64,000 bases of DNA from Allobosea robiniae (lineage in GTDB: Bacteria > Pseudomonadota > Alphaproteobacteria > Rhizobiales > Beijerinckiaceae): NCBI RefSeq assembly GCF_900102525.1, contig NZ_FNBZ01000003.1, positions 248,001-312,000 on the forward strand, given 5' to 3'. Every line of letters begins with the position of its first letter. Position 1 is the first letter of the stretch. The position numbers and the translations under genes are program-made. Under the pieces are notes generated by a model. It saw only the letters and a program-made list of their open reading frames with translations, was not told the DNA's origin and made no database searches. Below, piece by piece: positions 49,982 to 64,000 of the stretch.

Positions 49982-50779
49982 TCATCGTAAGCCGGTGACG
50001 CCGCTCGCAGCGTCTTCGGGTGGTGTGACGAACTGGCCGGGATCGATCGTGCGGACCGCCGGGTGAACGGCGGTCGCGGCCAGAATGTCGGACAAGACTG
50101 ACCAGGCGGTCTCGTCGTGGTCGCGATGGTGCAGCAGCAGGCCCAGCTCGATGTCGCCGGCCTCGTTCCGCCGCCACTGTGCCAGTAGAGCGACGAGTTC
50201 GCCCAGGATGTCCGCGGCCGGGCGCCCGACGCGGCCGCCATGCCAGTCCATGACGTCGACATGGGTGTTGAGCAGGCGCGGCCCACCGTCCGACCCCAGG
50301 CGATAGCCGCGGAAGCAGGAGAGACCGGCAAAGCCGAGCGCGCCGAGGCGCGCGGCATGGTTTTGGGCGATGCGGTTCCAGGGTGGCACGAAGACCGGCA
50401 GGACGGCGTCGCCGAGGAGGTCGCGCAGGCGCTGGCGGCCCAACGCGATGTCGGCATCGATATCGGCAGCCTCGCGATCGGCGCCGAACTCTGATTTTTT
50501 GCTGCCGGCAGGTGCGTGGTTCAGGTGGGAAGCGCCATGCTGGCAGGGCCGCAGCAGCGGCATGCCGCGTAGCGTCGGTGCCAGTGCAGGCTCGGCCAGC
50601 AGGGGGATGACCGCGAGCAGGATCGGCGTCGAGAAGCGCTCGGCGAGATCCGAGAGGCGGTCGAGTGCCGGGCTTGGCGCCACGGTGTCGTCGTCGCGCA
50701 ACCAGAGGCCGATCTTTCGTTCGGATGCGCTCCAGTGGTCGAGTTCGAGGGCGAGCGCCTGCCAGGGGGAGACATTCAC
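49982..50779 (-). CDS. Polysaccharide deacetylase-like protein
   Basis: A 265-residue protein with the deacetylase (CE4-like) barrel. The metal/catalytic Asp pair may be in KIGLWLRDDDTVAPS, followed by a His-containing QHGASHLNHAP. FVPPWNRIAQNHAARLGALG fits the second half of the active site. It would remove acetyl groups from amino sugars. No signal peptide is seen, so it may act in the cytoplasm on precursors. It overlaps the upstream glycosyltransferase by 4 bases. Confidence 0.8.
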   Translation of the reverse strand: MNVSPWQALALELDHWSASERKIGLWLRDDDTVAPSPALDRLSDLAERFSTPILLAVIPLLAEPALAPTLRGMPLLRPCQHGASHLNHAPAGSKKSEFGADREAADIDADIALGRQRLRDLLGDAVLPVFVPPWNRIAQNHAARLGALGFAGLSCFRGYRLGSDGGPRLLNTHVDVMDWHGGRVGRPAADILGELVALLAQWRRNEAGDIELGLLLHHRDHDETAWSVLSDILAATAVHPAVRTIDPGQFVTPPEDAASGVTGLR

Positions 50780-51915
50780 GGCGCAGTTCTCTCCGTTGGG
50801 GATGGCAGCTTGGCGCGGCGGTTCCGCATGGCGAGCGCCAGACCTTCCGCCAGCCTTTCAGCGGCGCGTTTCGTCGTGCGTTCGGCCGATATGAAACGGC
50901 GCGCGGCAGCCCCCATGGCTTCGCGCTGTGCTCCGTCGCGCAGCAGGCTGATCAGGGCAACGGCCAGGGCTTCCTCGTTAAATTCGGGGGCGAGCAGGGC
51001 AGTCTCGCCGACCAAGACCGTCTCGCCGACGCCGCCGCTGTCGAAGGCGACGACTGGCAATCCTGCCGCCTGGGCCTCGAGATAGACCAGCCCATAAGCC
51101 TCGCCGATGCCGGGCCAGATGAAGATATCGTGCCGGGCGAGCTCGGCCTGCGCGGCCTCGCGGTCGAGCTGGCCGTGCCAGGTGATGCGGCGAGCGGGGA
51201 CACCGGCAAAGGCGGCTTTGACCTCGGCACGGCGGGGTCCGTCGCCGATGATGCTCAGCGTCCAGTCTTCGCCCCGGCAGCGGTCGAGGACGCGGGCGAG
51301 GGTGAGGTAGCTCTGCAGCTTGGCGCCCTCTCGCATCATTGCAATGGTGACGAGGCGTGGCGGGCCCGACGAAATGGCGGGTCGGGGCTGCTCGGGAGGG
51401 GTCGCGACGAAGGGGGGCAGGGCGAGCAGGGACGTACCCGCGTTCCGCCAGGGTTCGAGCCCCTGCCGGTCGCGGTCGGTGAAGTAGAAATGGACGTCGC
51501 CGGCGGCCAGCCCCTGCCGGACAGCCGCCGTATGCGCGGCCCATTCGCCGGTGGCGCGCCGGGCGGAATCGCTGGATTCGGCGGTGACATAAGGGATGTC
51601 GAGCGCTGTCGCGATATCCGGCCCGAGGAGGTCCGGCGAGCGATAGTAGTTGTGATAGGTGAACCAGAGATCGGGGCGTGGCCGGCCGGCTTGGTATCCG
51701 GCGAGCAGGGCATCGCGCAGGCGGGCCGCGTCGGTGACGACGCTGATAAAGCGCGCCGGGTCCGGTTCGCGAAAATAGGTCTTTGGCGCTGCGACAGGCT
51801 CGACGACATGGCCGAGGCTTTCGAGCGCGGCGACGAGCTGGCGGGCCATGCGGCGGTCGCCGGAGACGCCGCCGTCACCGACCGGATTGAGCGGGGTGTG
51901 GAACGCGATGCGCAA
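50776..51915 (-). CDS. Glycosyltransferase family 4 protein
   Basis: A 379-residue GT-B enzyme. The N-terminal domain has TPLNPVGDGGVSGDRRMARQLV, and the donor-binding domain shows IGEAYGLVYLEAQAAGLPVV and the E-x7-E motif typical of GT4. The start is uncertain: no ATG lies before the conserved region. TTG 51915 is used, while a CTG overlapping the permease stop is possible. It is followed by the deacetylase with a 4-base overlap. The gene links the ABC importer to the rest of the glycan operon. Confidence 0.82.
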   Translation of the reverse strand: MRIAFHTPLNPVGDGGVSGDRRMARQLVAALESLGHVVEPVAAPKTYFREPDPARFISVVTDAARLRDALLAGYQAGRPRPDLWFTYHNYYRSPDLLGPDIATALDIPYVTAESSDSARRATGEWAAHTAAVRQGLAAGDVHFYFTDRDRQGLEPWRNAGTSLLALPPFVATPPEQPRPAISSGPPRLVTIAMMREGAKLQSYLTLARVLDRCRGEDWTLSIIGDGPRRAEVKAAFAGVPARRITWHGQLDREAAQAELARHDIFIWPGIGEAYGLVYLEAQAAGLPVVAFDSGGVGETVLVGETALLAPEFNEEALAVALISLLRDGAQREAMGAAARRFISAERTTKRAAERLAEGLALAMRNRRAKLPSPTERTAP

Positions 51916-51941
51916 GATCGTCTTCGGGGTCGGTGATGCTG

Positions 51942-53129
51942 TCAGCGGTAGGGGTCGGCTGCGTCGCGCAGGCCGTCGCCGAGGAAGTTGAAGGCGAGGA
52001 TGATCACGATCACGGGCACGACCGGATAGAGCAGCCAGGGATAGAGCGCCACAACATTGATGTTCTGGGCCTCGTTGAGCATCACGCCCCAGCTGGTGAT
52101 CGGAGGCCTGAGGCCGAGGCCGAGGAAGGAGAGGGCGGTTTCGCCCAGAATGGTCTTGGGGATGGTGATCGTCGCCGAGGCGATGAGATGGCTCATGAAG
52201 CCGGGCACCAGATGGAGCGCGATGATGCGGCGCGGCTTCGCGCCCATGAGCTGGGCTGCGACGACATAATCCTCCTCGCGCAGCGAGAGTAGCTTCGAGC
52301 GCACCGAGCGGGCGAGCCCGGTCCAGTCCATCAGGCCGAGGATCACCGTGATGCCGAAATAGACCAGCAGCGGGCTCCAGGTCGGCGGCAGGATCGAGGC
52401 CAGCGCCAGCCAGAGCGGGATATGCGGCAGCGACTGCACGATCTCGATGATGCGCTGGACGACCAGATCGATCCGGCCGCCATAATAGCCGGCGATGCCG
52501 CCGATGATGACGCCGAGCACGAAGGAGACGGAGACGCCGAGCAGGCCGATCGAGAGCGAGATGCGCCCGCCATAGAGGATGCGCGAGAGCATGTCGCGGC
52601 CGAGCCGGTCGGAGCCGAGCAGGAAGAAGGTGCCGCCCTCGGGCGGGCAGACGAGGTGCCGGTTGCCGGGGATCAGCCCCCAGAAATCGTAGTCGTCGCC
52701 CTTGCAGAAAAAGCGCAGCTTCTGCGGGCGCGTGCTGTCGACCTCGTATTCGCGCTTCAGGTTCTCCATGTTGAGGCGCATCGCATAGGGGTAGACGAAG
52801 GGGCCGATGAAGCTGCCTTCGTGGAAGAGGTGGATGCTCTGGCTGGGCGCGCGGATGAAGTCCGTGTTGCGCGTCGTATAGTGATAGGGCGCGAGGAACT
52901 CGGCGAAGGCCGCCATGGCGTAGATCACGAAGATCACCACGGCGGAGATGACCGCGAGCTTGTGCTTGCGGAACTTCCACCACATCAGTTGCCATTGCGA
53001 GGCGAGGTAGACCCGCTCCTGCTCCGGCGTCATCGCCTCGGTAGCATAGGGTTCGAACGGCGCCGTCGAGACCTCGTGCGGCAGGGCCGCGCCGTCCGGC
53101 GGAAGATGGTTGAGCGTCGTCGCCTTCAC
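51942..53129 (-). CDS. Oligopeptide/oligosaccharide-type ABC transporter permease (DppC/YejE-like)
   Basis: A 395-residue permease, longer than DppC because of a periplasmic insert of about 100 residues between the first helix (HKLAVISAVVIFVIYAMAAF) and LLGSDRLGRDMLSRILYGGR. The coupling loop is VVAAQLMGAKPRRIIALHLVPG. This insert is shared with AgpC/YejE-type importers, whose ligands include alpha-galactosides or peptides. It overlaps the DppB-like permease by 4 bases. Confidence 0.88.
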   Translation of the reverse strand: MKATTLNHLPPDGAALPHEVSTAPFEPYATEAMTPEQERVYLASQWQLMWWKFRKHKLAVISAVVIFVIYAMAAFAEFLAPYHYTTRNTDFIRAPSQSIHLFHEGSFIGPFVYPYAMRLNMENLKREYEVDSTRPQKLRFFCKGDDYDFWGLIPGNRHLVCPPEGGTFFLLGSDRLGRDMLSRILYGGRISLSIGLLGVSVSFVLGVIIGGIAGYYGGRIDLVVQRIIEIVQSLPHIPLWLALASILPPTWSPLLVYFGITVILGLMDWTGLARSVRSKLLSLREEDYVVAAQLMGAKPRRIIALHLVPGFMSHLIASATITIPKTILGETALSFLGLGLRPPITSWGVMLNEAQNINVVALYPWLLYPVVPVIVIILAFNFLGDGLRDAADPYR

Positions 53130-54127
53130 TTGGTCGCGGCTCCCTGGAGGCGGATGCGCGGATCCAGGATGGCGAGCGCGATATCCGAGATCAGCACGCC
53201 GATCACGGTCAGGAAGGAGAGGAACATCAGGAAGGAGCCGGCGAGATACATGTCCTGGCTCTGCAGGGCGCGGATCAGGAGGGGGCCGGTGGTCTGCAGC
53301 GAGAGCACGATCGCGACGACCTCGGCGCCCGAGACGATCGAGGGCAGGATGTCGCCGATATCCGAGATGAAGAAGTTGAGCGACATCCGTAAGGGGTATT
53401 TCCGCAGCGCCTTGCCGGGCGGCAGGCCCTTGGCGCGGGCGGTGACGTAATACTGCTTCTGCAACTCGTCGAGCAGGTTGGCGCGCAGGGCCCGGATCAT
53501 GCCGGCGGTGCCGCCGGCGCCGATGATGATGACGGGAATCCAGAGATGCTCCAGCACCGATTTGAGCTTGGCCCAGCTCATCGGCTGGTTGAGATAGGAG
53601 GGATCGACGAGGCCGCCGATCGAGGTGCCGAACCAGATATTGGCGAAATACATGAAGACCAGCGCCAGCAGGAAATGCGGCACGGCAAGCCCGACGAGGC
53701 CGAGGAAGGTGAGGCCGTAATCGCCCCAGCTGTACTGGTGCGTCGCCGAGTAGATGCCGATCGGGAAGGCGACGATCCAGGTGAAGATGATGGTGGCGAA
53801 GGACACGATCATGGTCAGCAGCAGGCGGTCGCCGACGATCTCGCGCACCGGGCGCTGGTATTCGAAGGAATAGCCCATGTCGCCCTGGATGAGGCCGGCG
53901 ACCCAGCGGACGTAACGTTCCAGCGGGGGCTTGTCGAAGCCATACTCCTTCTTCAGGAACTCGATGCGGCTCATGTCCGCCTTCTCGCCCTGGGCCTGCA
54001 TCTCGGCGGCGAGCGTCTCGAAATAATCGCCTTCAGGCAGGTTGATGACGGTGAAGATCAGCGCGCTGGTGACGATCAGCGTCGGGATCATGAGCAGGAT
54101 GCGCTTGAGGATGTAGCGGATCAGCAC
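53126..54127 (-). CDS. Oligopeptide/oligosaccharide-type ABC transporter permease (DppB/YejB-like)
   Basis: A 333-residue permease. The first helix is RILLMIPTLIVTSALIFTVI. A periplasmic part and YVRWVAGLIQGDMGYSFEY follow, with the usual six-helix core. The coupling loop is YYVTARAKGLPPGKALRKYPL. The gene overlaps the YejE-like one and lies 3 bases after the binding-protein gene, so all are one transcription unit. Confidence 0.88.
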   Translation of the reverse strand: MLIRYILKRILLMIPTLIVTSALIFTVINLPEGDYFETLAAEMQAQGEKADMSRIEFLKKEYGFDKPPLERYVRWVAGLIQGDMGYSFEYQRPVREIVGDRLLLTMIVSFATIIFTWIVAFPIGIYSATHQYSWGDYGLTFLGLVGLAVPHFLLALVFMYFANIWFGTSIGGLVDPSYLNQPMSWAKLKSVLEHLWIPVIIIGAGGTAGMIRALRANLLDELQKQYYVTARAKGLPPGKALRKYPLRMSLNFFISDIGDILPSIVSGAEVVAIVLSLQTTGPLLIRALQSQDMYLAGSFLMFLSFLTVIGVLISDIALAILDPRIRLQGAATK

Positions 54128-54130
54128 GCG

Positions 54131-56086
54131 TCAGGCCTTGGTCTCGGCTCGGTCGAACCAGAAGGTGTCGGGCATGTAGCGGCCGATGAAGGCACCGGGC
54201 TCGAAGCTATAGAGGCCTTTCTCGGGCACGTTGCGCAGGTCCCTGGAGACGACGATCGGCTGCAGCGTGCTGTTGATCACGCCGATGCTGAAGAGCTGCT
54301 CGGCATTGATCGCCAGCATCTTGTGCCAGATGGCGCGGCGCTGGTCGCGGGTCGAGCTGACGCGCCATTCCTCGTAGAGCCGCACGAGTTCGTTGACCTC
54401 CGCCAGGGCCGGCCGTTCGCCTTCGCGGCCGCTGTTCTCGACGAACTGGCCCCAGCGCGGCCACTGGAACTGGGCGGAGGAGGTCGGCGCCAAGGCATCC
54501 GGCTCCATGTCCGAGGTGACCAGTGCATTGTCCATGCCGGCCCAGGCCGACATCACCGTCTGGCCGGCGAGGATGCGGCGGCGGAAGACGTCGCGCTGGG
54601 TCGAGCGGGGATAGATCTTCATGCCGACATCGAAGAAATCCTGCTTGAGCAGGTCGAGGATGTCGGTTTCCTCGGTGTTCTCGCCGGCGGTCTCGATGGT
54701 GAACTCCAGCCGGCGCCCGTCCGGGAGCAGGCGGATGCCGTCGTCGTCGCGTTTGGTCAGGCCGATCTCGTCGAGCAGGCGGTTGGCGAGCGCGGGGTCG
54801 TGCTGGGTCCAGAGCGCGGCGAGCTTGGCGTCGTAGAGCGGGCTTTCGGGCAGGGCGGTGTTGCCGCTCTCGCGCGCCAGTCCGAAGAAGATGACCTTGT
54901 TGACGTCCTTGCGGTTGATCGCGACCGAGATCGCCCGGCGATAGCGGACATCGCGGTTGAGGTCGCGCCAGACCGGATCGATGGCGTTCAGGTTGGGGAG
55001 CAGGGCGAAATAGGCGCCTTCCGCGCGCTTCCACAGCCTGACGTCGAAATTCATCCGCTTTGAGGCTTCCTTCAGGAAGGTGTAGTTGTCGAAGCGGATA
55101 TAGCGGGCCTGGAGGTCGGACTCGCCGGCCGCGGCCTTGGCCGGGATGAGCGAGCTTGTGCCGATCGTCAGCGTCACCTGGTCGGTATAGGGGAGCTGGC
55201 GACCGTTCCTGTCGATGCGGTGGAAATAGGGATTGCGCTCGAAGACGAACTGCTCGGCCGGCAGGGGCGTGGTATTGCGCCAGGGCTCCAGCGTCGGCAG
55301 CTTCGGGTTCTCTGGCCGGTACATGCGCGAGAGCCGCTCGTGCAGCGCGCCCCAGTCGCGGACATGGTGCTCCTTCACCCGTTTGGCCAGTTCGTGCTTC
55401 GGCGCGTGGCGCTCGTGGAACTGCTTGAGATAGCCGGAGGCCATGAAGATGTAGGTCGGCTGCGCGCCCGCCAGCGCCGGCAGGAAGATCGGGTTCGGCG
55501 TCTTCCAGCTGTAGCGGACTTCCGTCTCGCTCAGGATCTCGAAGCGCGGCGGTTCATTGGCCGAGAACAGGGCCTGGGGCGGGCCGCCCGGCGAAAGCCG
55601 CTTGTTGTTGGCGATATCCTCCCACCAGTAGCGGAAATCCTCGGTGGTGAAGGGCGAGCCATCCGACCAGCGATGGCCCTGGCGCAGCTTGAGGGTGAAG
55701 ATGCGGCCATCCTCGACCTCGCAGCTCTCGAGCAGGTCCGGCACAAGCTCCAGATCGTCGTCATAGACCATCAGGCGGGTGTAGCCGTAGAGCGTCATCA
55801 TGCGGATGTCGCGCTGGTCGCCCATCAGCATGCGGATATTGCCGCCATGGCGGCCGGGCTCACGGCCGAGCGCCGCCAGATCGATGATGCGTGGATTGGC
55901 CGGCAGGCGCGCGGCGACCGGTGGCAGGGTGCCGGCTGCGACCTGGTCCGCGAAGAACGGGCTGTCGATCGCAGTGCCCGAGAACGGCGCGGCCTGCGCG
56001 AGGCGCGGCAGGGCGGCTCCCGCGAGAGCGGCGGAGCCGAGCAGCAATGCGGTGCGGCGGGTCGGGTGCGGGGCACGGCGCGTCAT
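54131..56086 (-). CDS. Large ABC transporter substrate-binding protein (family 5)
   Basis: A 651-residue periplasmic protein with a Tat-like N-terminus (RRAPHPTRRTALLLGSAALAG). It is larger than typical family 5 binding proteins (about 500 residues), matching the YejA/AgpA subgroup. Family features include CEVEDGRIFTLKLRQGHRWSDGSPF and VFERNPYFHRIDRNGRQLP. It provides the ligand to the two permeases and the fused ATPase. The genes for glycan enzymes in the same operon make an oligosaccharide ligand plausible; peptides cannot be excluded. Confidence 0.88.
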   Translation of the reverse strand: MTRRAPHPTRRTALLLGSAALAGAALPRLAQAAPFSGTAIDSPFFADQVAAGTLPPVAARLPANPRIIDLAALGREPGRHGGNIRMLMGDQRDIRMMTLYGYTRLMVYDDDLELVPDLLESCEVEDGRIFTLKLRQGHRWSDGSPFTTEDFRYWWEDIANNKRLSPGGPPQALFSANEPPRFEILSETEVRYSWKTPNPIFLPALAGAQPTYIFMASGYLKQFHERHAPKHELAKRVKEHHVRDWGALHERLSRMYRPENPKLPTLEPWRNTTPLPAEQFVFERNPYFHRIDRNGRQLPYTDQVTLTIGTSSLIPAKAAAGESDLQARYIRFDNYTFLKEASKRMNFDVRLWKRAEGAYFALLPNLNAIDPVWRDLNRDVRYRRAISVAINRKDVNKVIFFGLARESGNTALPESPLYDAKLAALWTQHDPALANRLLDEIGLTKRDDDGIRLLPDGRRLEFTIETAGENTEETDILDLLKQDFFDVGMKIYPRSTQRDVFRRRILAGQTVMSAWAGMDNALVTSDMEPDALAPTSSAQFQWPRWGQFVENSGREGERPALAEVNELVRLYEEWRVSSTRDQRRAIWHKMLAINAEQLFSIGVINSTLQPIVVSRDLRNVPEKGLYSFEPGAFIGRYMPDTFWFDRAETKA

Positions 56087-57960
56087 GGCACCAGCTCCCG
56101 CATATCGGCATTCGGCCGCGCGAGTACGAAATGGCCATCGCCGAGCGGCAGATGCGTCAGGGCGCCCTCGTCGGGCCCTGCCTTGAAGGCCTTGTCCCAA
56201 TGGCTGTCGTCGGAGGCGCCGCCGGGCGCGGCCAGCTTGAAGTCGAGCCTGCGGTCGAGATCGGCGAAGGGCACGGAGCGCAGCAGCGCCCTCGTGTAAG
56301 GATGGGCGGGGCGGTCGAAGAGCGCGTGGCGCGGCGCCAGCTCGACGATCCGGCCATTGGCCATCACCGCGATCCGGTCCGCCATGTAGTTCACCACGGC
56401 GAGATTATGCGAGATGAACAGGAAGGTCAGGCCGCGCTCGGCCTGAAGGTCCTTGAGCAGGTTGAGGATCTGCGCCTGCACGGAGACGTCGAGCGCCGAG
56501 ACCGGTTCGTCGCAGATGATCAGGTCCGGGTCGAGCGCGAGCGCCCGCGCAATGCCGATGCGCTGGCGCTGACCGCCGGAGAAGGAATGCGGATAGCGGT
56601 TGAGGAACCGCATATCGAGCCCGACATCCTGCATCAGGGTCCGCACCCGTTCGTCCTGCCCGGCCTGATCGCCGCGGCCATGGATGACCAGCGGCTCGCG
56701 CAGGATGTTCATCACGGTCATGCGCGGTGACAGCGACGAGACCGGGTCCTGGAAGATCATCTGGACGCGCGGGCGGAACTTGCGGAGGTCCTCGCCCTCG
56801 AGGCCGAGCACGTCGACCCGCTCGCGCCCATCGTCGAAGATCACTTCGCCGGAATCGGGCGTGACGGCGCGCATGATGATCTTGCTGACCGTGGTCTTGC
56901 CGCAGCCGCTCTCGCCGACGAGGCCGAGGCATTCGCCACGCCTGATGTCGAAGCCGACATCGTTGACGGCCTTGACGCTGGTCTGGTTGCCCTTGCCGAA
57001 GAAGCTGCGCGAGCCCGTGACATAGGTCTTGTGCAGGCCGCGGACGCTGAGGAGGGGGGCGGCGTCTGCCGCGGGTTTCGGTGGCGGCGCGGCGACGGCC
57101 GGGCGCGGGCGCGCCTCGCGCAGCGCGACCAGCCGCTCGCCGTCCTGCATGTCGAAATGCGGGGAGGCGTCGAGCAGCGCCTTGAGATAGGGGTGGCGGG
57201 GGCGGCGAAAGATATCCTCGACCGTGCCGCGCTCCATGATCTCGCCATGGAAGATCACCACCACCTCGTCGGCCATGTTGGCGACGACGCCGAGGTCGTG
57301 GGTGATGAGCAGGATCGCCATGCCCATCTCGGCCTGGAGATCGCGCATCAGGTCCAGCACCTGGGCCTGGATGGTGACGTCGAGAGCCGTGGTCGGCTCG
57401 TCGGCGATCAGCAGGGCCGGCTGGCAGATCAGCGCCATGGCGAGCATGGCGCGCTGGCGCAGCCCGCCCGAGAGCTCGAAGGAGTAGAGGCCGAAGGCGC
57501 GCTTCGGGTTCTTGAAGCCGACACGCTTCAGCATCGCTTCGATCAGTTCACGCGCCTCGGGCTTCGGCATCGGCCGGTGCAGGAGCAGCGCCTCCTCGAT
57601 CTGGTTGCCGATGGTATGGACCGGCGAGAGCGAGGACATCGGCTCCTGGAAGATCATGCCGATCCGCCCGCCGCGCAGCGCCCGGATGCCCTTGCCTTCG
57701 GCGGGCAGCGTCGCGATGTCGACGACGGTCTCGGGGGCCTGCGGGTCGCGGAACAGGATCTCGCCGCCGGTGATCCCGCCGGCGCGTGGCAGGAGACCCA
57801 TGATGGCCTGGGAGATCACCGATTTGCCGGAGCCGGATTCGCCGACCAGCGCGACGGTCTTGCCGGCGGGGACGCGCAGGCTGACGCCCTTCACAACGTC
57901 ACGGGCCAGGCCGTGGATCGTGAAGCCGATACGCAAGTCGCTGATGCGCAGGATATCCAT
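56083..57960 (-). CDS. Fused ABC transporter ATPases (YejF-like)
   Basis: A 625-residue protein with two ATPase domains. The first has Walker [25 protein letters not shown] and [10 protein letters not shown]. The second (from about residue 315) has [27 protein letters not shown] and [11 protein letters not shown] linker rich in Pro and Ala ([18 protein letters not shown]) joins them. All motifs look intact. It starts 26 bases after the polysaccharide-lyase-like gene and overlaps the binding-protein gene by 4 bases. Confidence 0.9.
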
Positions 57961-57986: not shown

Positions 57987-59036
57987 CTAGGGCCCTTCAC
58001 CTTTCCTGACGTCACTAGACGTCGAAAGCGGCAACTTGCCAATCGCTTTCGACGCTTGCGGTTCCGGCGGGCATTGCCCGATGCGGATGACATCGCTGCA
58101 ACGGGGCCCGCGCCGGAAATCGTCGTAGCTGATGCTCCAGGGCAGCGGGGCCGGGGCGCGATAAGGGCCCATCTTGAAATACTGGTTGTCGTCGAGCCCT
58201 GGGCCGCTATGCCCGATATGGCCCTCGACGGTCACGATATGGACGCCGTCGGCAAGGATTTCGACATGGCCTTCGCCATCGGGGCCAGGTTGGGAACGGA
58301 CGACGAAATCGATCCAGCCCTTCTGCGCGGAGGGCAGGTCTGCATGCGGCGTCACCCGGATTCCGGGCGCGCAGGCGTCGAAATAACGCGGGTAATTCTC
58401 TGTGGTCGTGCCGCTCTCCATCGCGACGAGCGCGCGGGTCTGCTGTGCATCGGGGCGGCTCAGCACGAGCGCCTCGCCAGGAAGGCAGCCGTGAGGGCGC
58501 TCGCTGCCGCCGATCGGATAGGAGGGAATCAGGTCGGTCTCGACGGTGATGCCGAGGCGGCCGCGATAAAGGCGCAGCGCCAGGAAGGGCGAATAGTCGC
58601 CGACGGCCTCGGGCAGGATCTCGCGCTTCCACTGGGCGATCACATATCTGCGATCGTCCTGGGCGAGCGGATCGTTGAGGCGCAGCGCAAAGCCGTACCA
58701 GACCGCGCTGCGGAAGGGGACGAGCACCTCCGGGCGCTCCCAGACCTCGGCCCGCTCGCTGCAGCCGATGGCGCGCGGAAGACAGGACGGCGTCGCGATC
58801 AGGGTCAGGGCGCCCGCGCCGCTATAGGGCGCGGCATCCCCGAAAATCGCGCGGCCAGAGCGCTGCTCGGGATTGTCCTTGTAAAATAGCCCGCCTTCGG
58901 GGGCGAAACCGCCCTGTTCGAAGCCGTCGTGCAGGATGCGCTGGGCGGGGTCGGCTCGGGCCGAGACGGCGAATAGGCCGACGAGACCGATCGCGGCCGC
59001 GCAGCACAGCATTCCCGACGCAACTGTCCTTTTCAC
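57987..59036 (-). CDS. Heparin lyase I-like / polysaccharide lyase family exported protein
   Basis: A 349-residue exported protein with signal peptide KRTVASGMLCCAAAIGLVGLF ending near SARA. A beta-jelly-roll pattern follows, with SAVWYGFALRLNDPL, YVIAQWKREI and GWIDFVVRSQPGPDGEGHVEI, typical of heparin lyase I/glucuronan lyase-type folds. Several cysteines suggest disulfides. It may cleave or bind acidic polysaccharides in the periplasm or outside. GTG 59036 gives a good signal peptide; the in-frame ATG at 59066 adds only ten residues. It is the probable first gene of the glycan operon. Confidence 0.75.
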   Translation of the reverse strand: MKRTVASGMLCCAAAIGLVGLFAVSARADPAQRILHDGFEQGGFAPEGGLFYKDNPEQRSGRAIFGDAAPYSGAGALTLIATPSCLPRAIGCSERAEVWERPEVLVPFRSAVWYGFALRLNDPLAQDDRRYVIAQWKREILPEAVGDYSPFLALRLYRGRLGITVETDLIPSYPIGGSERPHGCLPGEALVLSRPDAQQTRALVAMESGTTTENYPRYFDACAPGIRVTPHADLPSAQKGWIDFVVRSQPGPDGEGHVEILADGVHIVTVEGHIGHSGPGLDDNQYFKMGPYRAPAPLPWSISYDDFRRGPRCSDVIRIGQCPPEPQASKAIGKLPLSTSSDVRKGEGP

Positions 59037-59196
59037 GCTACCCCCGACGATGGATGCCACCTCCACCCTGCTATGCCGCTACGGCCGCAGCGTGGCGCGC
59101 ATTGCACTCGGCCGCAACCTCACCACATATGGTCGCTTCGGGCCCGCCGGACCCGTTCGAGCTTGCGCCGCGAGCGCTTCGGTACAGGGTTGCCCC

Positions 59197-61953
59197 TTGG
59201 AGTCCAATCTCTTCCGTTACATCTGGCAGAAGAGCCGGGCCGAGCAGGTCGTCGTCCTGCTGATCATCCTTGTCTCGATTCCCTTCAACTGGGCTTCGTT
59301 CGACGTGCCCAAGCGCATCGTCAACGATGCGATCCAGGGCGGCGCCTTCAAGGACGGCAAGACCACCGCGACGCTGATGGACTTTACCCTGCACCTGCCG
59401 TCCTGGCTGGGTGGGGCGAGCTACAGGCTGTCGGAGGGCATCCAGGTCGGCCAGTATGGCCTGCTCGTCGGCCTCAGCACCTATTTCCTGCTGCTGGTCC
59501 TGATCAACGGCGCCTTCAAATACGTCATCAATGTGCGCAAGGGCATCCTCGGTGAGCGCATGCTCAGGCGCATGCGCTACGACCTGTTCAGCCAGCTGAT
59601 GCGCTTCCGGCCGGAGGAGATCCGCGCGGTCAAGCCGGCCGAGATCGCCAGCATGATCAAGGACGAGGTCGAGCCCGTCGGCGGCTTCGTCGGCGATGCC
59701 TTCATCCAGCCTGTCTTCCTGCTCAGCCAGGCGCTGACGGCGCTGATCTTCATCATGGCGCAGAGCTTCTGGCTGGGCTCGATCGCGCTGCTGATCGTGC
59801 TGGTACAGGCGATCATCATCCCGATTCTCAGGCGCGAGCAGCTCAGGCTCGGCCGCGAGCGCCAGATCGCCTCGCGCCAGCTCGCGGGCCGCATCGGCGA
59901 GATCGTCGATGCCGGGCCGATGATCCAGGGCCATGGCGCGACGGCCTATGTCCAGTCCGACATCGCCGGGCGGCTCGGGCGGCTCTTCGACATCCGCTAT
60001 GCGCTCTACAAGCGGAAATTCGCGGTCAAGTTCCTCAATAACCTGCTGGCCCAGATCACGCCGTTCTTCTTCTACGCGATCGGCGGCTTCTTCGCGCTGC
60101 AGGGGCGGCTCGATATCGGCCAGCTGGTCGCGGTGATCGCCGCCTATCGCGACCTGCCGCCGCCGATCAAGGAGCTGATCGACTGGGACCAGCAGCGCAA
60201 CGACGTGACGATCAAGTACGATCAGGTGATCTCGCAGTTCAACAGCGACGAGACGCTCGTCCTCGACGAGGAGAACGGGGTCGCGGCCCTGCCGGAAAAG
60301 GGCGAGATCCGGCTCGAATCCGTGCAGATGCTCGACAATCGCGGCCAGCCGCTCCTGACGCCCCTCTCGTTCAGCCTGGCGCGGCCGGGCCTGGTGGCGG
60401 TTATCGGCCCGCCGGGCGGCGGCAAGGACGTGCTCGGCCGGATCCTCGGCCGGCAGGCGACGAGCTATACCGGCCGCGTGCTGATCGACGGCGAACCGCT
60501 GGCGGGAATGTCGGTCGAGCGGGCGAGCCACATCATCGGCTATTCCGGCGACGAACCCGAGCTCATCGCCGGCTCGATGCGCGACAACATCCTGCTGCCG
60601 CTGCGGCGCCGGCGCCCGGACCTCAAGGCCGGCGGCGCGGTCTCCGCACCGGAGCACCGCCGCTTCGTCGAGGCGATCCGCTCGGGCAACTCGCCCTTCC
60701 CGTTCGAGGCCGACTGGACCGACTATGCCGGGGTCGGCGTCACCGACACCGCCGAACTCGCGGCGCGCATCCACGAACTGCTCGACGTCTTCGGCTGCAC
60801 GCAGGAGGTCTACGAGCTCGGGCTCGGCGGCAAGGTGATGCGCCCGGTCAGCGAGCAGGCGATCGAGCGCATCATCGCGGCCCGGCGCGTGGTCGCGGCC
60901 GAGCTGACACGGATCAAGCAGGGCGACCTGATCGAGCCCTTCGTGCTCGACCGCTACAACCGCAACGCCCCGATCGTCGAGAACCTGATCTTCGGCACGC
61001 GGACCAGCACGCGCTTCGACAGCACGACCCTGCTGTTCGAGCCCTATGCCCAGTCGATCCTGAAGGCGGAGGCGCTGGTCGAGCCGCTGGCCGAGATGGG
61101 CGCGCGCATCGTCGCGACCGTGGTCGAAATCTTCGCCGGCCTGCCGCAGGGCCATGCGCTGTTCGAGCGCTATTCCTTCGGCGCGAATTTCGAGTTCGAG
61201 CGCCTGAACGAGCTCGCAGCGCTGCTGGCCAAGCACGACATGCGCAACCCGCTCGACCAGGAGACCGAGCGCGATCTCGTCGCGCTGGCGCTCGGCTATA
61301 TCGAGCCCAAGCACAGGCTGAACCTGATCGATGCGCGCCTCGAGCGGCGCATCCTGCGGGCGCGGGAAAGCTTCCGCAAGCATCTGCCGGCCGATGCGGT
61401 CGAGGACGTCGATTTCTACGACCCCGACAAGGTGATGGTCGGCGCCAGCGTGCGCGACAACCTGATGTTCGGGCGCATCGGCTACGGCGTGCCCGATGCC
61501 GCCCGCAAGGTCGGCGAGATCGTGCTGCAGGCGCTCGCCCGCTCAGGGCTGGGCGAGGCGCTCTACCGGCTCGGCCTCGATACCGAGAGCGGCATCCGCG
61601 GGCGTTTCCTGCCGGTCCGGCTGCGACAGGCCGTGCCGTTGGTCCAGGCGCTGGTCAAGGCGCCGCAGATCGCGGTGCTCGACATATCCTCTCTGCTCGC
61701 GATTTCGGACGAGCCGCGGGAGATCGTCGCCCGGCTGCACAGCTATTGCGCGGGCATGACGCTGTTTCTTCTGGTCGGAGATGCTAACCTTGCGGGAGAG
61801 GTCCCGCTGCGGGTGCTGTTCCACGGAGCGACGGGCACGGTCGAGGCGCTGGGCAGGCCCGATGCGGCCAATGATCGGGCGTCGCGCCTCGAAAGCACCG
61901 GGCGCGAGGACACTGGGCGCGAGAACACTGGGCGAATGGAGGCGCGATCATGA
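59197..61953 (+). CDS. ABC-exporter-like membrane protein with degenerate, expanded nucleotide-binding domain
   Basis: About 918 residues from TTG 59197; the frame is open to an ATG at 59050. The N-terminal third is an exporter-type membrane domain with helices such as VVVLLIILVSIPFNWASF and YGLLVGLSTYFLLLVLI. The ATPase domain starts with VAVIGPPGGGKDVL near residue 404, where the Walker A Ser/Thr is Asp. About 420 residues separate this from IAVLDISSLLA (near residue 829), where the catalytic Glu after the Walker B Asp is missing. The usual LSGGQ is replaced by VRLRQAVPLV, and no switch His is seen. ATP hydrolysis is therefore doubtful. A normal ATPase domain needs only about 120 residues between these motifs, so there is an insert of roughly 300. 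It is coupled by 4 bases to the next gene. Confidence 0.82.
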   Translation: MESNLFRYIWQKSRAEQVVVLLIILVSIPFNWASFDVPKRIVNDAIQGGAFKDGKTTATLMDFTLHLPSWLGGASYRLSEGIQVGQYGLLVGLSTYFLLLVLINGAFKYVINVRKGILGERMLRRMRYDLFSQLMRFRPEEIRAVKPAEIASMIKDEVEPVGGFVGDAFIQPVFLLSQALTALIFIMAQSFWLGSIALLIVLVQAIIIPILRREQLRLGRERQIASRQLAGRIGEIVDAGPMIQGHGATAYVQSDIAGRLGRLFDIRYALYKRKFAVKFLNNLLAQITPFFFYAIGGFFALQGRLDIGQLVAVIAAYRDLPPPIKELIDWDQQRNDVTIKYDQVISQFNSDETLVLDEENGVAALPEKGEIRLESVQMLDNRGQPLLTPLSFSLARPGLVAVIGPPGGGKDVLGRILGRQATSYTGRVLIDGEPLAGMSVERASHIIGYSGDEPELIAGSMRDNILLPLRRRRPDLKAGGAVSAPEHRRFVEAIRSGNSPFPFEADWTDYAGVGVTDTAELAARIHELLDVFGCTQEVYELGLGGKVMRPVSEQAIERIIAARRVVAAELTRIKQGDLIEPFVLDRYNRNAPIVENLIFGTRTSTRFDSTTLLFEPYAQSILKAEALVEPLAEMGARIVATVVEIFAGLPQGHALFERYSFGANFEFERLNELAALLAKHDMRNPLDQETERDLVALALGYIEPKHRLNLIDARLERRILRARESFRKHLPADAVEDVDFYDPDKVMVGASVRDNLMFGRIGYGVPDAARKVGEIVLQALARSGLGEALYRLGLDTESGIRGRFLPVRLRQAVPLVQALVKAPQIAVLDISSLLAISDEPREIVARLHSYCAGMTLFLLVGDANLAGEVPLRVLFHGATGTVEALGRPDAANDRASRLESTGREDTGRENTGRMEARS

Positions 61954-62399
61954 GTCTGGAAACCGATATCGGCTGCCTGCGTTGCCTGCCGCTGTTCCAG
62001 GACATGCCGGCATCGCGGCTCAAGCTCGTCGCGCTGATGGGCGAGCGGCTGCAATTCGAGCCCGGTGCTGTCCTGATCAGCCCGCAGGAGAAGCTCGAGG
62101 GCGTCTACGTCATCCTGGAAGGCGAGGTCGAAATCCTGCAACCAAGCGAGAGCGGCGAGGAGCGGCGCTTCGTCAAGGACACCGGCAGCATCACCGGCGA
62201 CGTGTCCCTGCTGAGCGGCCAGCCCTTCATCGCCACCATCAGCGCGAAGTCGCGGGTGCTGGCGCTGCGGATTCCGAAGGACCTGTTCTTCGAACTGCTC
62301 CAGACGGTGCCGGAATTCAGCCTCGCCGTCTGCCGGGATCTGGCCGGCCGGGTCCACAGGCTTGCCTCCGTCCTGCTGCGCGAGCACGAAACCGTTTGA
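61950..62399 (+). CDS. Stand-alone cyclic-nucleotide-binding-fold protein
   Basis: A 149-residue protein consisting of one cNMP-binding beta-roll and C-terminal helices, with no DNA-binding domain. LFQDMPASRLKLVALMG and GVYVILEGEVEILQ match the fold. The phosphate-binding cassette, normally with Gly-Glu and an Arg in PRTA, reads GDVSLLSGQPFIATI, so Glu is Asp and the Arg is Ile. Classical cAMP binding is thus unlikely, though another ligand is possible. It overlaps the ABC-like gene by 4 bases and precedes the cyclase by 16 bases. Confidence 0.82.
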   Translation: MSLETDIGCLRCLPLFQDMPASRLKLVALMGERLQFEPGAVLISPQEKLEGVYVILEGEVEILQPSESGEERRFVKDTGSITGDVSLLSGQPFIATISAKSRVLALRIPKDLFFELLQTVPEFSLAVCRDLAGRVHRLASVLLREHETV

Positions 62400-62415
62400 C
62401 GAGGTCCATCATCGC

Positions 62416-64000
62416 ATGAACCGGCCGCAAGCCGCAGGCACGAACCGCACGGGCGCAACCCGCGGCGGCATGGGTGCGAGCATGGACCAGGTCTCGTCCT
62501 GGAGTCGGGACATCCGGTTCGTCTCCGGGTTGATCCTGCTTGTTTTCGCCACGACCCATTTCCTGAACCATGCCGTCGGCATCCTCGGTGTCGGCGCCAT
62601 GGAGAAGGTCCAGGACTGGCGCTATGGCTTCTGGCATTCCTGGGCCGGGACGGCCGCGCTCTATGGCGCGCTGATCGTCCACCCGGTCTTCGCGCTGCTC
62701 AGGGTGGTGCAGCGGCGCACCTTCAAGATGCCTCTGCGCGAAATGCTGCAGATCGCGCTCGGCCTCGCCATTCCGCTGCTGCTGGTCGACCACATCATCA
62801 GCACGCGGGTGATGGGCATCTATTTCGGCGTCGACGAGAGCTACCGCTCGGTCCTGCGCCGGCTCTGGCCGGGGCTGGCGCTGACGCAGTCGCTGCTGCT
62901 GCTGCTGGTCTGGACGCATGGCATCATCGGCATCCATTTCATGCTGCGCGCCCGCGACAGCTATCGCCACTGGCGCGACCCGTTCCTGCTGGCGGCGATC
63001 CTGATCCCGCTCCTGGCCATCATCGGCTTCTCCGTCGGAGCGCGGGAGGCCGAGCAGATGGCGATGCCGGCCGAGCTGGTCAGCGACGCGCAAGCCGCGA
63101 TGTTCGCCCGCGACGTGATGTGGGGCAAAGGCGCCTTCTACGGCCTTGTCGCTTCCTTCCTGTTGTTCATCGGCATTCGCGAGATCAGGGTCCGGACGAC
63201 GCGCCAGATCACGGTGCGCTTCGTCGGCCACGGCACGCGCCGGCTGGCGCCGGGGCCGACCGTGCTCGAGATGTTCCGGCGCTTCGGCATTCCCCATGCC
63301 GCGCTCTGCGGCGGGCGGGCGCGCTGCGCCACCTGCCGCGTGCTGGTGATGGACGGCAACGACAAGCTGCCGAAGCCGGGCCCGAACGAGGCCAAGCTGC
63401 TGCGGCGGATCTCGGCGCCGGAAGGCGTCCGGCTCGCCTGCCAGATCAGGCCGCGCGACGATCTTCAGGTGCAGATCCTGCTGGCGTCGCGATTGAATGC
63501 CGGCGCGGCGCGCCCGTTCGAGATCGACGATGCCGCGGGCAAGCGCGGCCTGACCGTGGTGGTGGCCGATCTCAGGGCGTTCTCCGCTCTCTCCGAACGG
63601 CAATTGCCGCGCGAGCTGATCGGCCTGCTCAACCGTTTCTTCGACGAGATGGGGCAGGCGATCACGGCGCATGAGGGGCGCATCGACGCCTTCTATGGCG
63701 ACGGCTTCATGGCGGTGTTCGGTCTCGAAGGCCCGCCGGCACGCGGGGCACAGGCCGCGATCGCGGCTGCCGGCGACATCGTGCGCGCGGTCGATGCGCT
63801 CAACCGGGAATACGGCGCGGCGCTTCCGCTTCCGCTCCGGATCGGCATCGGCATCCATACCGGTGACGCGATCACGGGCGCGGTCGAGAACGAAAACCTC
63901 GGACGGCGCGAGATCACGGTTGGCGAGACCGTCATGGTCGCGAGCCAGCTCGAATCGGCGACGCGGCGCGTGCTGGCCGATATCGTCGTCTCCGAGGACA
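62416..64000 (+). CDS. Membrane class III adenylate/guanylate cyclase with 2Fe-2S ferredoxin domain (partial)
   Basis: At least 528 residues, running off the window. Residues 35-255 hold about six helices carrying many His: THFLNHAVG (48, 52), FWHSW (74), VDHII (126), WTHGIIGIHF (168, 174). They could bind heme as in cytochrome b-like anchors. Residues 265-355 are a plant/adrenodoxin-type ferredoxin with Cys298, Cys304, Cys307 and Cys342. From about residue 378 a class III cyclase domain follows, with metal Asp385 (VVADLRAFS) and Asp429 (FYGDGFMAVF). The adenine-selecting Lys before FYGDG is Ala, and the usual VNxAxR reads VMVASQ. Catalysis may be altered or lost. The gene is co-directional with the cNMP-fold protein. 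Confidence 0.85.
   Translation, partial: MNRPQAAGTNRTGATRGGMGASMDQVSSWSRDIRFVSGLILLVFATTHFLNHAVGILGVGAMEKVQDWRYGFWHSWAGTAALYGALIVHPVFALLRVVQRRTFKMPLREMLQIALGLAIPLLLVDHIISTRVMGIYFGVDESYRSVLRRLWPGLALTQSLLLLLVWTHGIIGIHFMLRARDSYRHWRDPFLLAAILIPLLAIIGFSVGAREAEQMAMPAELVSDAQAAMFARDVMWGKGAFYGLVASFLLFIGIREIRVRTTRQITVRFVGHGTRRLAPGPTVLEMFRRFGIPHAALCGGRARCATCRVLVMDGNDKLPKPGPNEAKLLRRISAPEGVRLACQIRPRDDLQVQILLASRLNAGAARPFEIDDAAGKRGLTVVVADLRAFSALSERQLPRELIGLLNRFFDEMGQAITAHEGRIDAFYGDGFMAVFGLEGPPARGAQAAIAAAGDIVRAVDALNREYGAALPLPLRIGIGIHTGDAITGAVENENLGRREITVGETVMVASQLESATRRVLADIVVSED

Follow-up and report, generated by a model that had tools for sequence, protein, structure and literature searches.

The window analysed here, a 64,000-nucleotide stretch of the Allobosea robiniae genome (5.28 Mb, 99.99% complete), ends in three plus-strand genes at 59197-64224, the last 224 bases of which lie past the window end. 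They encode an exporter-like protein of the ATP-binding cassette (ABC) type, a stand-alone protein with the cyclic nucleotide monophosphate (cNMP)-binding fold, and a membrane-anchored protein with a class III cyclase fold that resembles CyaC of Sinorhizobium meliloti. From sequence comparison, the trio appears to descend from a signalling circuit of the cyclic AMP (cAMP) type and to be a derived state of an older, widespread ABC-cNMP module. The explanation favoured here, with a probability of about 0.45, is that an envelope-glycan ABC module acquired a CyaC-like redox cyclase that was later stripped of its nucleotide chemistry, with signalling probably by contact in Bosea, the genus of the nearest named relatives of the window.

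The trio and its conservation in Bosea

The three genes are arranged as follows.

59197..61953, plus strand: ABC exporter-like protein, 918 aa, TTG start, with a type IV exporter membrane domain and a degenerate, enlarged nucleotide-binding domain (NBD) (Pfam, structure model, Foldseek)
61950..62399, plus strand: stand-alone cNMP-fold protein, 149 aa, its start overlapping the ABC stop by 4 bp (Pfam cNMP_binding)
62416..64000 in the window, end at 64224, plus strand: CyaC-like six-transmembrane-[2Fe-2S]-class III cyclase-fold protein, 602 aa, following the cNMP gene after a 16-bp gap (Pfam Fer2 and Guanylate_cyc)

This spacing, noted in a preliminary description of the DNA, is confirmed from the coordinates. 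The same description supposed that the trio is conserved together with its degenerate residues, and this is borne out. The gene order is present in all 36 loci of what is called here the Bosea clade (L003-L036, L041 and L050). Three of these are defective (L017 is cut by a contig end, and L020 and L041 have broken frames) and were excluded from the trees. The cassette Glu and Arg of the cNMP protein are gone in 36/36 loci, and the Lys, Asn and Arg of the cyclase site are all replaced in the 34 cyclases that are readable, that is, all except L017 and L020. Because the degenerate residues are conserved across the clade, they do not reflect decay in one strain. The residues of the Walker motifs, signature, cNMP cassette and cyclase site are assigned their canonical roles; their presence or absence was computed here.

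Median pairwise ratios of nonsynonymous to synonymous substitution (dN/dS) were calculated by the Nei-Gojobori method for 33 of the 36 loci (without L017, L020 and L041), using non-independent pairs with dS of 0.1-1.2. They range by domain from 0.16 to 0.41: 0.16 for the ABC membrane domain, 0.32-0.37 for the NBD parts, 0.41 for the cNMP protein, 0.31 for the cyclase anchor, 0.17 for Fer2 and 0.20 for the cyclase domain. Judged by these ratios, the trio appears to be under purifying selection in the Bosea clade.

The losses differ in age and did not arise together, and in this respect the earlier interpretation is not supported as it stood; the trio was not degenerate from the outset. The ABC loss is apparently the oldest and is family-wide, the cyclase loss followed on a branch wider than Bosea, and the cNMP cassette was lost last, in Bosea. 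Homologues with intact motifs, which the preliminary description would have counted against a conserved degenerate trio, do exist among relatives for the cyclase and the cNMP protein; the ABC protein is degenerate almost everywhere. Ten relatives (L042, L065, L066, L068, L074, L078, L080, L082, L084 and L088) combine the same gene order with an intact cyclase site, and in these the cNMP Arg is present in 10/10 and the Glu in 8/10 (Asp in L065 and L066). The observation made in the preliminary description is thus confirmed, and its interpretation partly supported.

The ABC protein

The features of the ABC protein, all on the plus strand, are listed here.

59197..60246, plus strand: membrane domain, residues 1-350, the most constrained part by dN/dS (Pfam ABC_membrane)
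60406..60429, plus strand: Walker A place, residues 404-411 GPPGGGKD, with Asp at the Ser/Thr position (sequence reading)
60514..60840, plus strand: helical subdomain copy 1, residues 440-548 (HHalign)
60853..61200, plus strand: helical subdomain copy 2, residues 553-668 (HHalign)
61294..61632, plus strand: helical subdomain copy 3, residues 700-812, terminating in the lost signature, FLPVRLRQ against the expected LSGGQ (HHalign, sequence reading)
61669..61692, plus strand: Walker B place, residues 825-832 IAVLDISS, with D829 kept and Ile at the catalytic Glu position (sequence reading)

The protein matches PF00664 ABC_membrane with 48.7 bits (cut-off 28), and ABC_tran is matched over positions 1-80 of 137 only. 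The type IV membrane domain is present, and the marks of an active ATPase (Walker A GK[ST], LSGGQ and the catalytic Glu) are all absent, as already reported; GPPGGGKD, FLPVRLRQ and D829-Ile bear out each of the three losses. The structure model has a predicted local distance difference test score (pLDDT) of 81 and a predicted template modelling score (pTM) of 0.72, and Foldseek aligns it to ABC exporters with a large root-mean-square deviation.

The NBD carries an insert, estimated at ~250-300 residues, between the Q-loop and Walker B. Profile comparison with HHalign of parts of the family alignment (39 of 48 ABC sequences, after exclusion of L041, L017, L020 and six near-duplicates) shows that the insert consists of repeats of the NBD helical region, so that the helical subdomain is present three times. 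Copies 2 and 3 match with an E-value of 6.8e-19 and a probability of 99, copies 1 and 3 with 1.9e-10 and 97, and copies 1 and 2 with 8.1e-7 and 92. Three control comparisons with membrane segments gave probabilities <1; the fourth, between membrane parts A and B, gave 49, with 11 columns common to both by construction. We know of no description of an NBD with a tripled helical subdomain.

Walker A Lys and Ser/Thr are both retained in 3/188 loci (L123, L233 and L242), which makes the degenerate ATP site an ancient, family-wide loss that has gone furthest in Bosea. Of the 152 loci outside the Bosea clade, 137 retain the signature Gln and 83 have Asn in place of the Walker B Asp; within the clade the signature is lost in all 35 readable loci of 36. 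A second half-transporter of the same family was found within 4.5 kb downstream in none of 188 architectures except that of L041, whose own ABC frame is broken. The relative in L242 has the signature LSGAQ and the Walker B sequence LVLDEAT, and its motifs suggest that it may still have ATPase activity.

The ABC-cNMP pair

With the NBD insert as query, ABC-family relatives were found in 130/385 genomes of the class (E <=1e-30) and, at a looser E of 1e-10, in 135/297 genomes of the order, where the short matches, at ~1e-11 to 1e-13, resemble exporters of the usual kind. Neighbourhoods were read for 80 of 103 full-length places in the order (five fragmentary places having been excluded beforehand) and for 60 of ~135 places in the class. 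The order neighbourhoods have a cNMP gene at most 209 bp downstream of the ABC gene in 67/80 and fused to the ABC C-terminus in 7/80. In the class, the cNMP gene is next to the ABC gene in 55 of the 60, fused in 3, second in L247 and absent in L227. It is also present at all 48 loci L003-L050, although in L046 and L048 the contig ends within ~150 bp of it and any next gene is outside the view. The fusions, 10/140 sampled loci in total, argue for physical contact of the two proteins. The sequences show that across Alphaproteobacteria the ABC and cNMP-fold proteins form a conserved pair, as neighbours or as a fusion; this pair is the core of the module.

The ABC family also occurs on 262 plasmid records at <60% identity, mainly from Rhizobium and Sinorhizobium and including S. 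meliloti pSymB. No description of the alphaproteobacterial ABC-cNMP family was found among the matches listed in open-licence literature, searched by titles and abstract openings.

The cNMP-fold protein scores 58.8 bits against PF00027 (cut-off 27.5), with no TIR or other extra domain in the Pfam scan. Its critical feature is the following.

62196..62228, plus strand: phosphate-binding cassette place, residues 83-93 GDVSLLSGQPF, with Glu replaced by Asp and Arg by Phe (sequence reading)

The Arg loss had been recognised in the preliminary description; the change of Glu to Asp is additional. The cassette Glu and Arg occur together in 0/36 Bosea-clade loci, as against 138/147 loci elsewhere. Their replacements within the clade are themselves uniform, with Phe or Tyr at the Arg position in 33/36 and Asp at the Glu position in 36/36.

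The cyclase

The third protein consists of three portions.

62506..63186, plus strand: membrane anchor, residues 31-257, with invariant H48, H89, H126 and H168 (anchor alignment)
63211..63486, plus strand: [2Fe-2S] ferredoxin domain with C298, C304, C307 and C342 (Pfam Fer2, alignment)
63550..64000 (window part), plus strand: class III cyclase domain with D385 and D429 kept, Lys replaced by A425, Asn by M507 and Arg by Q511 (Pfam Guanylate_cyc, Foldseek, sequence reading)

All four His are present in 54/54 anchors compared, and the four Cys of the [2Fe-2S] site are found in 54, 54, 54 and 53 of the 54, the sole exception being an alignment gap. Redox sensing, one of the possibilities raised at the outset, is plausible on account of this conservation. 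None of the findings has a bearing on copper, which the preliminary description had also named. A tetra-histidine signature is characteristic of CyaC-type anchors, and a 2019 paper on CyaC is said to describe it together with a [2Fe-2S] cluster. The anchor resembles the sdhC_b558 model, below cut-off, in 15/20 members, and its profile gave zero matches to PDB sequences up to E 10. The structure model is weak (pLDDT 68, pTM 0.48); the 50 matches listed by Foldseek are class III cyclases and do not cover the anchor fold.

The replacements of Lys, Asn and Arg agree with the earlier reading of the site, which made no mention of the two retained Asp residues. Both metal Asp are present in 87/90 cyclase rows, the remaining three being two pieces of L020 and the cut L111, and in all 42 readable degenerate anchored cyclases (34 of the Bosea clade and 8 others).

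Among 297 genomes of the order, 89 have some CyaC-like match at 1e-40, partial matches included. The best 30 CyaC-like loci, a score ranking that favours Bosea-like sequences, comprise 9 degenerate cyclases and 21 with the full set of Lys, Asn and Arg. Seven of the 21 canonical loci lie beside an ABC gene, whereas the other 14 are without any ABC match in the surrounding 1.5 kb; in the genomes of these 14 the ABC gene is on another contig, distant, or not listed. Eight of the 9 degenerate loci lie inside the module, and the other (L268) begins 486 bp from a contig end, so that its module status is unreadable. The score for a nearby ABC gene can also catch ordinary ABC ATPases, and the places were therefore cross-checked against the ABC-family search and the locus architectures. 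In part of Hyphomicrobiales, a class III cyclase joins the ABC-cNMP pair, and in some loci this cyclase is CyaC-like.

In an unrooted tree of 34 anchored module cyclases (including 16/36 from the Bosea clade), one branch with support 100/99 splits 24 degenerate from 10 canonical sequences. A tree built on anchor and Fer2 columns, with the cyclase domain excluded and 11/36 Bosea-clade cyclases included, gives a split of 19 degenerate and 10 canonical sequences with support 99/97. The ABC tree groups the same degenerate-cyclase loci plus L048, where the contig ends just past the cNMP gene. With the root of the tree not fixed, the simplest reading is that Lys and Asn were lost once, on one branch wider than Bosea, since the complete set of residues is the working state and the more widely distributed one.

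Three proteins match only the anchor and ferredoxin portions (model positions ~14-350) and are apparently without a cyclase domain: G150:C70:60781-61788, G198:C1:2364926-2365960 and G087:C3:102942-103982. Their genomes also hold a degenerate cyclase.

Genomic neighbourhood

Two sets of genes precede the trio in the window.

57987..59066, minus strand: divergent upstream gene of polysaccharide lyase family PF14099, with its start 130 bp ahead of the ABC start codon (Pfam)
51942..57960, minus strand: dipeptide-type ABC importer with two permeases, SBP_bac_5 and a dual ATPase, also seen next to the module in some other families (Pfam)

The PF14099 gene is found in 16/48 loci L003-L050, that of the window included. 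A dipeptide-type importer is also near the module in S. meliloti (gene table of CP140883), Azospirillum and Phyllobacterium, in the last with no ATPase in view. The trio is also flanked by a methyltransferase-like gene and two glycosyltransferases (L003:7301-10364, plus strand). Much of this set of importer, methyltransferase and glycosyltransferase genes is found again near the ABC-cNMP pair in Rhizobium, Phyllobacterium and Sinorhizobium, and partly in Azospirillum. A long minus-strand frame with a glycosyltransferase family 4 (GT4) domain at 50776-52995 overlaps the permease frame 51942-53129; the gene itself probably starts at a point inside this long frame.

A homologue of the GT4 gene L003:7960-9207 adjoins the ABC gene in 46/59 class loci and 50/80 order loci. 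The class cases are upstream and divergent in 45/46, at a median distance of 1454 bp; this arrangement holds for 36 of the 50 order cases, while 13 have the gene upstream in the same orientation and 1 has it downstream. In 80 gaps of 900-2200 bp, each of the 14 best-linked frames has BLAST links to 79 other gaps, and the gaps compared share a second conserved frame. Read by eye, without a domain scan, this frame looks like a transferase of the glycosyltransferase family 28 (GT28) type.

Some Hyphomicrobiales have a gene of the metallo-beta-lactamase (MBL) fold (PF12706), either between the cNMP gene and an anchor-less cyclase or after the cNMP gene alone. The four-gene form ABC-cNMP-MBL fold-cyclase is seen in L110, L113, L125, L079 and others. 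Our guess is that the MBL-fold gene encodes a cyclic-nucleotide phosphodiesterase, in which case the four-gene form would be a complete circuit.

Cyclases and cNMP domains in Bosea genomes

The genome of the window has one PF00211 match at E 0.001, the trio cyclase, and no match to PF01295; other cyclase classes were not searched. It has 11 cNMP domains. A PF00211 match is present in 57/61 Bosea genomes and the trio cyclase in 54/61; the latter was not found at E 1e-60 in the other 7. Comparison of the two tables indicates that the trio cyclase is the sole PF00211 match in 19/61, a count that excludes G327 (single match elsewhere) and G321, G329 and G336 (without the trio cyclase); the site residues of these 19 were read individually for the genome of the window only. 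A broken frame in a trio gene is seen in L020, L041 and G339, which are draft or metagenome assemblies where error and real decay are indistinguishable.

Proposed mechanism and alternatives

All three parts have lost residues for nucleotide use, but the sensor retains those that bind metal, heme and iron. This pattern suggests a sensor coupled straight to a transporter in the membrane. The ABC protein would move or gate a glycan or glycolipid made by the adjacent glycosyltransferases. It would not be powered by a normal ATP site, its state being set instead by the cNMP-fold partner. By analogy with CyaC (PMC10463352), the ancestral circuit may have run from the respiratory quinone or redox state through heme and [2Fe-2S] to cyclase output, and from cAMP through the cNMP partner to the ABC protein. 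In Bosea, a redox change in the heme/[2Fe-2S] part would shift the metal-bound cyclase domain, which would then touch the cNMP-fold or ABC protein directly, a physical link taking the place of a diffusible one. The nucleotide step has probably been replaced by direct contact in Bosea, and contact is proposed for Bosea only because degenerate-cyclase relatives outside it keep the cNMP Arg. In a bolder and rather doubtful form, the trio would be a second-messenger circuit without its messenger, where synthase, receptor and effector successively lost nucleotide chemistry but stayed together as a co-conserved unit, and a heme/iron-sulfur pseudo-cyclase passes redox state by contact to a cNMP subunit gating an ATP-independent ABC protein whose NBD helical subdomain is tripled.

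Several observations weigh against the proposed explanation. The putative glycan-export role is read entirely from the gene neighbourhood, and in 33 Bosea and named loci the GT4 gene is downstream on the same strand and not divergent. Six of the 80 order loci (L112, L118, L119, L120, L122 and L124) have no adjacent or fused cNMP gene. The degenerate cyclases are seemingly one evolutionary event (with the root not fixed), and the association of the loss with a place in the module is therefore a single data point. Degenerate-cyclase loci outside Bosea (L039, L064, L067, L069, L086 and L087) retain the cNMP Arg, L086 being without the Glu. At least 2 PF00211 matches are present in 34/61 Bosea genomes, and cAMP may well be made in many of them for this reason. 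The genome of the window also encodes a second stand-alone cNMP-fold protein, L175 (G000:C11:3481-3729), with the canonical cassette GELALF...PRQVT. Finally, the metal Asp may just as well have been retained because the enzyme is active on a different substrate.

This last point leads to the strongest rival, in which the cyclase remains active, on a different nucleotide or in some other metal-dependent phosphotransfer reaction, and the cNMP protein is retuned to its product. It owes this rank to the retention of both metal Asp in the degenerate anchored cyclases and to the conserved new cassette residues, which look like a functional pocket; there is also a precedent in HetC, where a cNMP fold on an ABC protein binds guanosine tetraphosphate (ppGpp) and not cAMP (PMC10986499). 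The replacements in Bosea (Asn by Met, Ala or Thr, and Lys by Ala or Ser) suggest a pocket that has been emptied rather than rebuilt, however, and the cNMP Arg is unchanged in the six degenerate-cyclase loci just named, so a changed chemistry is held here to be possible but not probable. Relaxed selection, with the trio drifting after Bosea lost cAMP signalling, would agree with the progressive order of the losses, the broken frames in L020 and L041 (both metagenome-assembled genomes), the 7 Bosea genomes in which the trio cyclase was not found and the position of the cNMP protein as the least constrained part. It is unlikely given dN/dS near 0.2 in the cyclase and Fer2 domains, the preserved His, Cys and metal Asp, and the gene order kept in every Bosea-clade locus.

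Two further rivals can be given little weight. The metal Asp are the residues retained by mammalian C1, the metal-Asp half of a split cyclase, and the trio cyclase might likewise pair with a subunit supplying Lys, Asn and Arg. This is very improbable, as the genome of the window has a single class III domain (E 0.001) and the trio cyclase is the sole PF00211 match in the 19 genomes mentioned; a split-cyclase partner was rejected, there being no second PF00211 match in the genome of the window. An anti-phage system like Pycsar is more improbable still. PADLOC PycC models match the trio cyclase (best 1.9e-14) and PycTIR matches the cNMP-fold protein (2.5e-11), but the latter match spans just positions 34-149 of 288, the cNMP part, and the protein is a bare 149-aa fold with no TIR or added domain. 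The canonical relative L042 scores better against PycC (9.8e-25), so that these matches are taken as generic class III similarity, and the ABC-cNMP pair is conserved over many families with a recurring glycosyltransferase neighbourhood. In L043, an ABC match to PADLOC mad3 spans residues 801-878 only and was set aside as generic ABC similarity.

Three states survive among present-day loci: cyclase and receptor both intact, cyclase degenerate beside an intact receptor, and both degenerate. They form a series showing how a second-messenger circuit may become a hard-wired protein complex, with sister lineages as ready controls. The analysis further indicates an ABC-cNMP family of wide distribution in Alphaproteobacteria, one member of which is on S. 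meliloti pSymB.

Comparison with known systems

Like Pycsar (PycC with PycTIR or PycTM), the trio combines a class III cyclase with a cNMP-fold protein. It differs in that no killer domain was found by Pfam or PADLOC, an ABC protein is the partner instead, and the cyclase site is degenerate. Another parallel is CyaC of S. meliloti (SMc01818; PMC10463352), which produces cAMP and has a TetR-family gene in front of it. The trio cyclase likewise has four invariant His, a four-Cys Fer2 domain and a class III domain; compared by description rather than by direct alignment, it differs in lacking Lys, Asn and Arg and in following an ABC-cNMP pair.

HetC of Nostoc PCC 7120 resembles the trio in the association of a cNMP fold with an ABC exporter. 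That fold is required for function and binds ppGpp (PMC10986499). HetC differs in having a C39 peptidase domain, an N-terminal cNMP domain and a required ATPase residue. The trio ABC protein has a degenerate ATP site and no C39 match in the Pfam scan, and the cNMP fold is separate or, in the fusions, C-terminal. With the type IV (ABCB-like) exporters BmrA, MsbA and BmrCD, the trio ABC protein has the membrane domain and NBD core in common. It is set apart from them by the loss of the Walker A Ser/Thr, signature and catalytic Glu, and its family by the threefold helical subdomain and by a cNMP partner that lies next to it or is fused with it at almost every sampled locus.

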